Source: Acidithiobacillus sp. (GTDB lineage: Bacteria; Pseudomonadota; Gammaproteobacteria; Acidithiobacillales; Acidithiobacillaceae). Taken from it: a stretch of 64,000 nucleotides of DNA. Under the pieces are notes generated by a model. The model saw only the letters and a list, made by a program, of their open reading frames with translations. It did no database searches and was not told the DNA's origin. A program made the position numbers and the translations under genes. How positions within the stretch are numbered: position 1 is the first letter of the stretch; each line of letters opens with the position of its first letter. The stretch lies in contig NZ_DAHVHY010000004.1 of the NCBI RefSeq assembly GCF_027322205.1, positions 1 through 64,000 on the forward strand. The letters run 5' to 3'. This document shows positions 7,776 through 41,677 of this stretch, in pieces.

Positions 7776-8867
7776 CTACACGTTAAACAAAAAATTCAGC
7801 ACATCTCCATCCTGTACCACATATTCCTTGCCCTCGGCGCGCATTTTGCCCCCTTCTTTTGCCCCGTGTTCGCCCTTGTACCGAACGAAATCGTCATAGG
7901 CGATGGTCTGGGCGCGGATGAAGCCACGTTCAAAATCACTGTGAATAACCCCCGCCGCCTGTGGCGCCGTGGCGCCCACCGGGATGGTCCAGGCGCGGAC
8001 CTCTTTGACGCCGGCAGTGAAGTAGGTCTGCAGACCCAGTAAGTGGTACGCCGAACGGATGATGCGGTTGAGGCCGGGCTCCTCCAGCCCCAAGTCCTGC
8101 AGGAAAGCGCTTTGCTCCTCCGGCTCCAGTTCTGCCAGTTCTGACTCAATGGCGGCGCAAACCGGGACGACGCTGGCGTGCTGTTCAGCGGCCCAAGCCT
8201 CCAGCGGCGCCCGCCAGGGACCATCCTGCAACTCGTCCTCGGCCACATTCGCGATGACCATCAGGGGCTTCATGGTCAGCAGGCAGAGGCTGCGCAGATG
8301 CTCTTGCTCCTCGCTGTTCAGATTCAGGCTGGCGGCCGGCTTGCCTTCATTGAGGTGGGGCAGGAGGCGGGTCATGGCGGCAACTTCAGCCACCGCGTCC
8401 TTGTTGCCCCCCTTGGCCTGCCGCGCCACCCGCGCCTGGGCCTTCTCCACGGTGCTGAGGTCAGCCAGAATCAGCTCCGTCAGCACCACCTCCAGATCCG
8501 CCACCGGGTCTACATGGCCACTCACATGGACCACGTTGGGGTCCTCAAAGCAGCGAGTGACCAAGGCAATGGCATCTGTCTCACGGATATGGGCGAGAAA
8601 CTGGTTGCCCAGACCCTCACCCTGTGCCGCGCCCGCCACCAGCCCGGCGATGTCCACGAACCCCATGGTGGCGTGCTGTACCTTCTGTGGTTTGACGATC
8701 TCTGCGAGGGTCTCAAGCCGGGGATCCGGCACCGCCACCAGACCGACGTTCGGCTCAATCGTGCAGAAGGGATAGTTCTCCGCCGCGATACCCGCCCTGG
8801 TGATGGCGTTGAAAAGGGTGGATTTGCCGACATTGGGTAAGCCGACGATGCCGCAGGCCAAAGCCAT
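7776..8867 (-). CDS. ychF: Redox-regulated/ribosome-binding ATPase YchF
   Basis: [42 protein letters not shown]; full-length 363 aa YchF/OLA1. Confidence 0.97.
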
Positions 8868-8876
8868 AAGAAACTC

Positions 8877-9446
8877 CTAATCGCTATGCAGCGTTTTTTG
8901 TGCCGCATCCGTGCGGCCGCTGAGAAAATCGGGAAGTACGCCGAGACTGCGTTCAATCGCCTCGTCAATCAGGGCGTTATCCGCTGCCGTCGGAGCGCCA
9001 AGCACATAACCGATGACCGCATCTTTGTGCCCCGGATGGCCGATACCGATGCGCAGCCGCCAGTAATCGCGGGTGCCCAGGGCATGGTCGAGATCGCGTA
9101 AGCCGTTGTGCCCGCCATGACCACCACCGCGTTTCAGCCGTGCCGTACCTGGGGGCAGGTCCAGCTCATCATGAATCACCAGAATCCGTTCTACGGGCAC
9201 TTTATAAAAGGCGGCCATAGCCTGTACCGGGCCACCGCTGCGGTTCATGAAATCCTGAGGCATACACAGCCCCAGTTCCAGTCCGGAAGCGCGTGCCGTA
9301 GCGGCCAGGCAATGCCAGCGCTTCTCCATACGCAAAGACGCCCCGACCCGATCCGCAAGGGTCTGGAGCGTCCAAAAACCGGCATTATGGCGGGTCCGGG
9401 CATATTCCGCGCCGGGGTTACCCAAGCCCGCCAACAACCAGTCCAT
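8877..9446 (-). CDS. pth: Peptidyl-tRNA hydrolase
   Basis: LLAGLGNPGAEYARTRHNAGFWTLQ...LVIHDELDLPPGTARLKRGGGHGGHNGLRDL. Confidence 0.97.
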   Translation of the reverse strand: MDWLLAGLGNPGAEYARTRHNAGFWTLQTLADRVGASLRMEKRWHCLAATARASGLELGLCMPQDFMNRSGGPVQAMAAFYKVPVERILVIHDELDLPPGTARLKRGGGHGGHNGLRDLDHALGTRDYWRLRIGIGHPGHKDAVIGYVLGAPTAADNALIDEAIERSLGVLPDFLSGRTDAAQKTLHSD

Positions 9447-10073: not shown

Positions 10074-11984
10074 TTATGGTGTCATGGAATGAGCGGGGCG
10101 AGGGTTGACAGGACCTTTCTCCCCAATAGCAAGGGGCGCATCATAATGCGCTGTGGGTTTTTCGGCAACCTTTTCTGGTGGTTTTTCATCGGGCTGCAAA
10201 TAGGCTTTGATCACCGCGCGAGCCACCGGCAGGGCTTGCCAGGCATTGTGCCCGCCATATTCCACTACCACGGCGACGGCGATTTTGGGGTGATGCACCG
10301 GCGCCCAACCGATAAAAAGAGAGTCGTTGTTATAGACGGTGTGGCCATTTTTATAACCCACCGGTACTTGTGCCGTGCCTGTTTTCCCGGCAATGGTAAT
10401 GCCGGGAATGCTGATGGTATGACAGGTGCCGGTGGTGACACAGGCCTCCATACCCTTATGGATGGCATGCATGGCCGCCGCCGAAATATGCAGATTAACA
10501 GGTGGCGCATGAGGAATGGGTGTTGTCTGGCCGGTATTCGGATTGATGAGCGCTTTGGCGACCTGGGGCTGAACCAGATAGCCGCCGTTGGCGAGGGCGG
10601 CGACCGCGCGGGCCAACTGCAATGGCGTTTCCAGCAAATAACCCTGACCGATTCCGAGAATGACGGAATCTCCCGTGTACCAGGGCGCATGCAGATGCTT
10701 ACGCTTCCAGGCCGGAGTCGGCACCAGACCACTGGCACCGCCCGGCAGATCGATGGGAGTTTTTCTGCCGAAGCCAAATCGCCACAGGGCCTTGTCCTGC
10801 AGGGCGATGCCCATTTTCACTGCGAGCTTGTAGTAAAAGACGTCTACCGACCAGGCTAGCGCCTTGGTCAGGCCGGTGTTGCCGAATCCCGCACGGTTCC
10901 AGTCCCAATAGGTGTGGCCGCCGAGCTGATAATTGCCCGCACAGAAGGTATGAAAATCCGGAGTGATGACGCCTTCCTGCACCGCCTCTATGGAATAGAA
11001 GGGTTTGGCGCAGGATCCCGGTGGATAGAGACCATTGTCCGCACGGTTCATCAGCGGCCGCCCTGGGTTATCCAGGAGACTCTGCCAGTGGGCCGTGCTG
11101 ATGCCGTCCACGAACCAGTTGGCGTTGAAGCTGGGGCTGGTGACCATGGCCAGTACGGCGCCATTGTCAGGGTCCAAAGCGACGATGGCGCCGCGATACC
11201 CCTTGCCTTTTTGTAAAGCTGCTGCCCCCGCCTGTTGCACGCGCAGGCGCAGATGGGTGAGCAAATTATCTCCGGGGTGCGTCGGCATCTCACGCAGCGT
11301 ACCCACCTGTAGCCCGCGCGCGTCGATATCCTTGATCCTATAGCCCATGGTGCCGCGTAGTTGGCGCTCGTAATAGCGCTCCAGGCCATTCTTGCCGATA
11401 TAATTACGCCCGACATAATTGCGGGCGTGAAAATCCTGCAGATCGGCGGCAGTAACAGGGCCGACATAGCCGACGACGTGGGAGAAAAGTGCATCATAGG
11501 GATAATAGCGATGCAGCAAGGCGACCACTCGCACGCCGGGTAGGTCCAGCGCGCGTACGGCTACAGCGGCGATCTGCGCTGGTGTCAGATTGGTCTTGAG
11601 GACCACTGGATCGAAATCCGGTTTTCCCAGGCGCAAATCCTGAAATTGGCGCATATCGTCTGCGCTCAGACCGAGCATCTGCTGCAGACGCTGCAACGTC
11701 TCCTGCAAATGGGGCACCTGGTCGGGGGTGATTTCCAGGGCATAGGTAGGCTGGTTTTCCGCCAGCGCCGCACCATGATCGGCAAGCACCAGACCGCGGG
11801 GCGGGGCGACGGGGACGAGAGCTACATGATTATCGTAAGCCAGTGTGCGGAACTTGGAAAAATGTAGTATTTCAAGGTCCATAATACGTAATGCCACGGC
11901 GAGAATCGCCAATAGCATCAGCACCGTCGCGACGCCGAGTCGGAAGCGGAAGCTGCTATGCTGGTCAGGATCAGAAAGAGGCAT
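10074..11984 (-). CDS. mrdA: Penicillin-binding protein 2
   Basis: Start chosen at MPLSDPDQHSSFRFRLGV. Class B PBP: ...GLYPPGSCAKPFYSIEAVQEG..., SVDVFYYKLA, AGKTGTAQVP. Confidence 0.88.
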   Translation of the reverse strand: MPLSDPDQHSSFRFRLGVATVLMLLAILAVALRIMDLEILHFSKFRTLAYDNHVALVPVAPPRGLVLADHGAALAENQPTYALEITPDQVPHLQETLQRLQQMLGLSADDMRQFQDLRLGKPDFDPVVLKTNLTPAQIAAVAVRALDLPGVRVVALLHRYYPYDALFSHVVGYVGPVTAADLQDFHARNYVGRNYIGKNGLERYYERQLRGTMGYRIKDIDARGLQVGTLREMPTHPGDNLLTHLRLRVQQAGAAALQKGKGYRGAIVALDPDNGAVLAMVTSPSFNANWFVDGISTAHWQSLLDNPGRPLMNRADNGLYPPGSCAKPFYSIEAVQEGVITPDFHTFCAGNYQLGGHTYWDWNRAGFGNTGLTKALAWSVDVFYYKLAVKMGIALQDKALWRFGFGRKTPIDLPGGASGLVPTPAWKRKHLHAPWYTGDSVILGIGQGYLLETPLQLARAVAALANGGYLVQPQVAKALINPNTGQTTPIPHAPPVNLHISAAAMHAIHKGMEACVTTGTCHTISIPGITIAGKTGTAQVPVGYKNGHTVYNNDSLFIGWAPVHHPKIAVAVVVEYGGHNAWQALPVARAVIKAYLQPDEKPPEKVAEKPTAHYDAPLAIGEKGPVNPRPAHSMTP

Positions 11985-12654: not shown

Positions 12655-12840
12655 TCCAGCCTCCTGCGGGGCGCGAGTAGCCGAGATGATTCCTGAACCA
12701 ACATTGTCTATCCAGGGAATTCTCAGTCATCATCGTGGTGTGCAGCTCCCTTGCGGAGTGGCCTGAAGCGGTGTGTGGATTCCCACCTGTACATCAGGTT
12801 CTGGGGGTAGCGGGCTGCACGACCCAGGCGGGGGGTTCTT
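12655..12840 (+). ncRNA. ssrS: 6S RNA (SsrS); boundaries approximate
   Basis: Non-coding gap in the conserved zapA-ssrS-fthC position. Eye alignment to E. coli 6S: 'GGATTCCCACCTGTACATCAGGTTCTGGGGGTAGCGGGCTGC' resembles 'ACATTCACCTTGAACCAAGGGTTCAAGGGTTACAGCCTGC', and 'AGCCGAGATGATTCCTGAACCA' resembles the 5' strand. Confidence 0.72.
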
Positions 12841-41366: not shown

Positions 41367-41677
41367 GGAGGTGTGGCAGAGTGGTTGATTGCACCGGTCT
41401 TGTCCCCAAATCGAGCCCTTGCCGGGAAACGGGCAGGGTGGCAGGAATCAAATTCGGCGAAGCCCCTGGTATATCCGAGGTAACGCCGAGCCAAGCCGGG
41501 ATTGTTCCGGAAGGTGTAGAGATCAGACGGTTCCCACCTACAGCCTCGCGGCCAGGGTGAAGGCATGATCCAGACTCCAAAAGGGTCCTTGTGGCCCTGT
41601 GGCGAAAACCATAGCGGGTAAGGAAAACCGGCAGGGGTTAACACCCCTCGTGAGTTCGAATCTCACCGCCTCCGCCA
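41367..41677 (+). tRNA. tRNA-Ser (anticodon TGA), interrupted by a group I intron; exons 41367-41401 and 41623-41677, CCA encoded
   Basis: Joined exons GGAGGTGTGGCAGAGTGGTTGATTGCACCGGTCTT+GAAAACCGGCAGGGGTTAACACCCCTCGTGAGTTCGAATCTCACCGCCTCCGCCA give a 90-nt class II cloverleaf: anticodon stem CCGGT/ACCGG, loop CTTGAAA, long variable arm, T arm GTGAG-TTCGAAT-CTCAC, discriminator G. Confidence 0.95.
41402..41622 (+). other. Group I intron (IC3-like), 221 nt, inside the tRNA-Ser(UGA) anticodon
   Basis: Conserved core segments TTCGGCGAA...GTAACGCCGAGCCAAGC, GGAAGGTGTAGAGATCAGACGG..CCCACC, GGTGAAGGCATGATCCAGA. 5' exon ends in U, intron ends in G; candidate IGS GAG (41413-41415) pairs with exon CUU (41399-41401), giving the U.G splice-site wobble. 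No internal ORF. Confidence 0.93.

Follow-up and report, generated by a model that had tools for sequence, protein, structure and literature searches.

A group I intron within the anticodon of the tRNA-Ser(UGA) gene of Acidithiobacillaceae, with an internal guide matched to its host tRNA

Introduction

The Acidithiobacillaceae include well-studied biomining bacteria, and in one Acidithiobacillus genome (2.28 Mb in 150 contigs) the gene for tRNA-Ser(UGA) appears to be broken inside its own anticodon. What is the sequence that breaks it, where did it come from, and how is the codon UCA read in cells that carry it? We address these questions for a contiguous stretch of 64,000 nucleotides, referred to here as the window, for which an earlier note made from the letters alone had proposed a tRNA gene split by a group I intron. 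It is, in our judgement, very probable that the insert is an IC3-like group I intron lodged between bases 34 and 35 of a chromosomal tRNA-Ser(UGA), that it derives from a lineage residing in tRNA-Leu with its guide re-fitted to the new host, and that its predicted splicing yields the tRNA that reads UCA.

Anatomy of the interrupted gene

The interrupted gene lies on the forward strand at positions 41367-41677, a length of 311 nt made up of a 90-nt tRNA and a 221-nt insert. The 5' exon (41367..41401), called by intron-allowing ARAGORN and with a matching exon in relatives, ends in C32-U33-U34 and is followed by the IC3-like group I intron (41402..41622, with the omega G at 41622), which is delimited by ARAGORN, alignment and pair covariation, and then by the 3' exon (41623..41677, from ARAGORN), which begins with G35-A36 and ends in an encoded CCA. 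When the exons are joined without 41402-41622, ARAGORN restores a 90-nt tRNA-Ser(tga) with a complete cloverleaf, and on the raw window its intron-allowing mode finds a tRNA-Ser(UGA) with a 221-nt intron after base 34, in agreement with the gene structure and the U34/G35 insertion point that the earlier note had put forward. Intron and 3' exon share the first letter G, and the letters alone would also permit a site at 35/36; the site at 34/35 was chosen because the rule of a U before the intron and an omega G at its end, together with the P1 and P10 pairings, selects it. An ARAGORN intron call alone is no proof, since the same mode also gave a tRNA-Pro with a 706-nt intron in the window (c19737-20539), which was rejected as a false positive overlapping protein-coding sequence (by eye proS). 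The proof that the locus is real is the conservation of the interrupted tRNA in further genomes, and we regard it as confirmed that this is a tRNA-Ser(UGA) gene carrying a group I intron between U34 and G35. At 41419, 41608 and 41643 the window has bases that occur in none of the alignment's 14 other full-length tRNA-Ser introns. Elsewhere in the window, a 6S RNA gene lies at 12658-12838 (67.5 bits, RF00013).

The interrupted tRNA-Ser(UGA) of the window escapes the Rfam tRNA model as well as a default tRNA scan, as had been foreseen for bacterial tRNA tools. The general Rfam group I model RF00028, named in the earlier note as a check, does match the window intron, but at 18.7 bits and so below its curated threshold of 50; it gives no match at E 0.01 for the copy in genome G014 (L014), and scores the intron of a tRNA-Ser(UGA) on a viral contig (L382, see below) at 53.4 bits. 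The low score is a detection limit of a broad model and not a defining biological feature, and it fits the report that archaeal group I introns were missed by the single RF00028 model and found by subgroup models (PMC6125680). Our family model R1 scores the window intron at 164 bits, a figure to be read with the window sequence itself included in the model. No sense-strand ORF of 80 aa or more is present inside the intron, for which 221 nt would be too short, and the earlier view that it encodes no homing endonuclease accordingly holds. Introns of the archaeal and eukaryotic BHB class typically sit at 37/38, whereas the window insert sits at 34/35 and has group I structure; judged on these two features it falls outside that class.

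Ribozyme fold and covariation

The fold is organised around an internal guide, UCGAG (41411..41415, forward strand, as are all elements given here), which is placed by alignment, pair counts and a host-specific tally of guides. Its GAG pairs with exon bases C32-U33-U34 to form P1, with a U34.G pair at the splice site, and its UC pairs with G35-A36 of the 3' exon to form P10. P2 follows as a hairpin with a GAAA tetraloop (41417..41438) in which six pairs show double-sided change. P3 (41444..41534), placed by alignment and covariation, is formed by 41444-41449 with 41529-41534 and encloses P4 (41454-41459/41484-41489), P5, P6 (41490-41492/41513-41515) and P6a. P7 (41521..41570) joins 41521-41525 to 41566-41570 in a pseudoknot with P3; its first pair, G-C, is invariant, and one of its pairs is compensatory in the alignment. 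P8 (41535..41559) shows an A-U to G-C compensation at one pair, and P9 (41600..41611), supported by alignment and covariation, is a hairpin with a GAAA loop. In the window copy a C.A mismatch closes the P9 loop, 41608 being A whereas G stands there in the alignment's 14 other full-length tRNA-Ser introns, and several members have mismatches in P2 and P8.

These pairings were assessed in an alignment of 16 sequences, namely 15 tRNA-Ser introns and one tRNA-Leu(CAA) intron. Of the alignment cells that belong to the 54 proposed pairs (P1-P10), 96.8% are paired, a percentage favoured by the fact that the structure was written by hand from the window's own sequence; the double-sided changes are not biased in this way, and they occur at 17 pairs, against 5.8 in shuffled alignments and at most 7 when the structure is slid by one to three columns. 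The covariation score is likewise 0.180 against 0.075 shuffled, and P3 of the tRNA-Leu(CAA) homologue L035 is largely exchanged for compensatory pairs. A group I core from P3 to P8 with the P3/P7 pseudoknot is therefore present in the alignment, which bears out the folding that the earlier note had predicted. Its account of the splice sites also stands: U closes the 5' exon and G the intron, P1 is CUU/GAG, and the U34.G pair is found in 15 of 15 full-length tRNA-Ser members, with P10 reading UC/GA in serine hosts and UU/AA in leucine hosts.

We infer a course of splicing in which the transcript would fold into P3-P8 and a guanosine bound in P7 would cut the CUU/GAG P1 helix behind U34. In the second step this U34, now free, would attack after the omega G at 41622, with P10 (UC/GA) holding the 3' exon in place, and the product would be a 90-nt tRNA-Ser reading UCA.

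Relatives in other tRNA hosts

A scan of public genomes with the core pattern, to which the loci already collected were added, gave at least 123 copies, nearly all at 34/35 and mostly in proteobacterial records. Among the matches listed the hosts are tRNA-Leu(UAA) (at least 88), tRNA-Leu(CAA) (at least 24) and tRNA-Ser(UGA) (at least 6, all from Acidithiobacillaceae), with at least 4 copies lacking an assigned host; one copy was mislabelled by the host call and reads as Leu(UAA). With the covariance model, additional copies came to light in 25 of 273 other genomes from the class and, in an overlapping sample, in 40 of 398 other genomes from the phylum. The hosts examined among these read as Leu(UAA), Arg(CCU), Ile(CAU) and Lys(UUU), manual reading having been needed for several that ARAGORN had mislabelled. 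The tRNA-Ser(tga) calls in three genomes of the phylum (L321, L325 and L328) and the tRNA-Gln(ctg) calls in L185-L190 and L194 were discarded, these being by eye tRNA-Leu(UAA) and tRNA-Ile(CAU). The introns of L170, L192 and L193, read as tRNA-Ile(CAU), sit at 33/34, compared with 36/37 in L185-L190. Two further loci (L179 c1387-1720 and L184 c1329-1698) read as tRNA-Lys(UUU) with group I introns after base 35, a host that to our knowledge has not been described for group I introns in Proteobacteria. The phage records searched showed no similarity to the intron, and plasmid records gave partial matches only, mostly from Mycetohabitans and Bradyrhizobium.

The nearest relatives among the matches listed are the IC3 introns of tRNA-Leu(UAA), known from bacteria and plastids, which share the 34/35 site, a GAG guide facing CUU and a homologous core, as the kinship proposed in the earlier note would lead one to expect; they differ in their leucine host, the window intron having instead a tRNA-Ser(UGA) host and, to match G35, a C for U in the P10 letter. 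The tRNA-Leu(CAA) introns of Proteobacteria (at least 24 copies), of which we found no description in the open literature, have the same site and core as the tRNA-Ser intron, but there the 5' exon ends in C34 and a C-G pair stands at the splice site in place of U.G. Loci of this kind include L035 (c550-868), L061, L067 and L111, and across the greater part of the core the window intron shares 73% identity with its tRNA-Leu(CAA) counterpart in G037. The introns of tRNA-Ile(CAU), of the Azoarcus kind, and of tRNA-Arg(CCU) are also tRNA introns with related cores, yet they occupy other sites (for Ile, by eye, 33/34 or 36/37) and their cores are more distant, at 30-92 bits compared with 140-166. 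In core trees, which rest on about 139 columns and have correspondingly limited resolution, the serine group joins a clade of Leu(UAA/CAA) introns with support of 96/94, other Leu(UAA) introns branch outside it, and the serine clade alone is weakly supported in one tree (73/46). Core comparison therefore supports membership of the intron in the IC3-like group I introns of bacterial tRNAs, with core homology to those of tRNA-Leu(UAA).

The guide and its host

The most informative result comes from the guide, which varies with the host in a simple manner. Among the matches listed, the exon context CUU|AA of tRNA-Leu(UAA) is accompanied by the guide UU-GAG in 88 of 88 cases, CUC|AA of tRNA-Leu(CAA) by the same guide in 22 of 24 (the other two seem misregistered by one base), and CUU|GA of tRNA-Ser(UGA) by UC-GAG in six of six; in the full-length aligned tRNA-Ser copies the guide is UC-G(A/G)G in 15 of 15. 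UCGAG is complementary to C32-U33-U34-G35-A36 and so spans both exons, its relation to them being that of codon to anticodon. As the target loops of Leu(UAA) and Ser(UGA) have CUU in common and differ solely at base 35, a move from leucine to serine would need a single change in P10, from U to C. The comparison favours such a shift of host from tRNA-Leu to tRNA-Ser with a one-letter P10 change, both because the core tree joins the serine introns to those of Leu(UAA/CAA) with other Leu(UAA) introns outside and because the guide matches the anticodon of the host; its direction, and with it descent from a tRNA-Leu(UAA)/(CAA) lineage whose guide UUGAG served CUU|AA or CUC|AA, is what we infer from these patterns. 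More generally, GAG would suit every tRNA that has C32-U33-U34, and the pair of bases ahead of it matches codon positions one and two (UU for Leu, UC for Ser).

Interrupted tRNAs on viral and phage-like contigs

Related or parallel introns in tRNA-Ser(UGA) occur in phage-like and large viral contigs. A 47.5-kb contig with genes for a lambda-like tail fibre, an endolysin and a spanin (L352) carries, about 300 bases from its end, a tRNA-Ser(UGA) with a 244-nt intron (8391-8724), which scores 105 bits to the model and groups with the Acidithiobacillus serine introns (99/100) on a long branch; the tRNA may be bacterial, situated at the edge or attachment site of a prophage. In the tRNA-Ser(UGA) of a 151-kb viral contig (L382, c494-787) a group I intron of 208 nt occupies 34/35; the best tree separates it from those of Acidithiobacillus, although a single serine clade is not rejected (p 0.39). 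A 363-kb viral contig (L346, IMGVR_UViG_3300028886_000029) holds a tRNA-Ser(UGA) and a tRNA-Gln(UUG) with group I-like introns of 722 and 556 nt (c981-1791 and c2156-2783), and another (L393) has the same interrupted tRNA-Ser(UGA) and tRNA-Gln (8152-8962 and 10550-11177), identical over the 3,259 bases compared, as well as a tRNA-Arg(UCU) with a 554-nt group I-like intron that by eye has AG as the two guide letters before GAG. In both of these contigs the interrupted tRNAs lie in a tRNA array, with free-standing GIY-YIG and HNH-like endonuclease genes nearby. A 2014 review knew phage group I introns only from protein-coding genes (PMC3984707), whereas the hosts on the viral contigs here are tRNA-Ser(UGA), tRNA-Gln and tRNA-Arg. 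It is tempting, though we offer it only tentatively, to see the guide as a portable anticodon reader, by which a two-letter change could re-home the intron, and to suppose that a distinct tRNA-Ser(UGA) lineage may spread between bacteria with phages.

Distribution in the family and origin of the insert

The survey of relatives for the same insertion, suggested in the earlier note, showed the intron in 16 of 29 genomes of Acidithiobacillaceae, one copy each, with the whole interrupted tRNA-Ser(UGA) seen in 15 of the 16; in the draft G015 the contig stops short of the 3' exon. Beyond the window, the interrupted tRNA is found in full length in 14 further genomes, among them the same-genus relative A. 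ferrianus (L142), and in truncated form in G015, with an insert of 210-221 nt at the same place and an identity of 81-98%. An uninterrupted tRNA-Ser(UGA) was confirmed in 11 of the 13 intron-minus genomes, and in G023, a further one, the BLAST matches are split in the same way. Within the genus the upstream gene adjoins the tRNA in genomes with the intron as well as in those without it, and it does so in some other genera too; exons and ribozyme core are conserved with compensatory changes across four genera. On a GatB tree, from which the intron-plus G028 is absent, the 13 absences form two clades, seven species within the genus and six in a sister genus, in which the early-branching G025 retains the intron; sister genomes mostly have sister introns.

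An assembly chimera, or a chance insert merely resembling a tRNA intron, might be suspected in a window that also yielded one false ARAGORN intron call, but the chance of this is negligible given the same locus in many independent assemblies, some with chromosome-sized contigs, at the identity noted above, and an upstream flank conserved in much of the family. A real intron could still have entered this site repeatedly and independently within the family, for instance by phage-mediated transfer, and the patchy presence and the related serine intron close to the end of the phage-like L352 speak for this; we nevertheless consider it unlikely, as the absences fall into two clean GatB clades and sister genomes mostly share sister introns. 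The presence of the intron fits one ancestral gain and two losses, which we prefer because these three events compare with four independent gains.

Dependence on splicing

The earlier note had raised the matter of an intact tRNA-Ser(UGA) alongside the interrupted gene, and here the genomes differ: such a copy was found in G014 and none in the tRNA inventories of G011 and G000. The single contig of G011 has 41 recognised tRNAs besides the interrupted gene, with CGA, GCU and GGA as the only serine anticodons and no tRNA-Ile in the list, so that a tRNA could lie hidden in masked or overlooked sequence; the serine set of G000 is the same. Under standard wobble rules none of these other serine tRNAs reads UCA, and UCA codons are in use, 10 in all in six of the seven window genes counted. 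Since UCA is used and no other reader was found, the interrupted gene must be spliced in G011, and genomes of this kind should depend on the predicted ribozyme splicing for their UCA-reading tRNA. The supposition that the interrupted gene is always the sole tRNA-Ser(UGA) was dropped because G014 has a second, divergent, intronless tRNA-Ser(UGA) (L231 c1455-1545) in a tRNA array with 14 or more genes, and dependence on splicing is thus not universal. In A. ferrooxidans ATCC 23270 a tRNA array lies on a putative conjugative element (PMC5468388), and a work cited there describes, by its title, a tRNA-array segment as dispensable. Strains without that segment would depend on the intron-bearing gene.

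The array copy in G014 also provides the argument for regarding the interrupted gene as dead, a pseudogene whose codon is read by another tRNA, but this seems to us very improbable, since no other tRNA-Ser(UGA) was found in G011 or G000 and exons and core have been kept across four genera with compensatory changes. Somewhat less remote, though still improbable, is that the intron is a genuine group I intron that is not self-sufficient and splices in cells only with a host protein such as a tRNA synthetase or an RNA chaperone. The P9 closing mismatch of the window copy and the P2 and P8 mismatches of several members point that way, and certain group I introns are known to have protein helpers of this sort (PMC3984707); on the other side, the core helices are intact, the core is close in length to those of relatives and there is no large deletion. 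The reading that we prefer thus remains that of a group I intron predicted to splice to the UCA reader.

Significance

The insert is best read as a functional group I intron in a new host tRNA. The kind of element is known, and what is new is the host, the re-fitting of the guide and the expected dependence of an essential tRNA on the intron; the open literature searched yielded no previous account of a bacterial tRNA-Ser as group I host, although absence is not proven thereby. A serine isoacceptor is added to the hosts of bacterial group I introns, and natural covariation shows how a guide gets re-fitted when an intron changes its tRNA. As default ARAGORN, the Rfam tRNA model and RF00028 at threshold leave this tRNA-Ser(UGA) unannotated, tRNA counts are biased. 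For the Acidithiobacillaceae themselves, sister clades that cleanly possess or lack the intron open the cost and the loss of such introns to testing.
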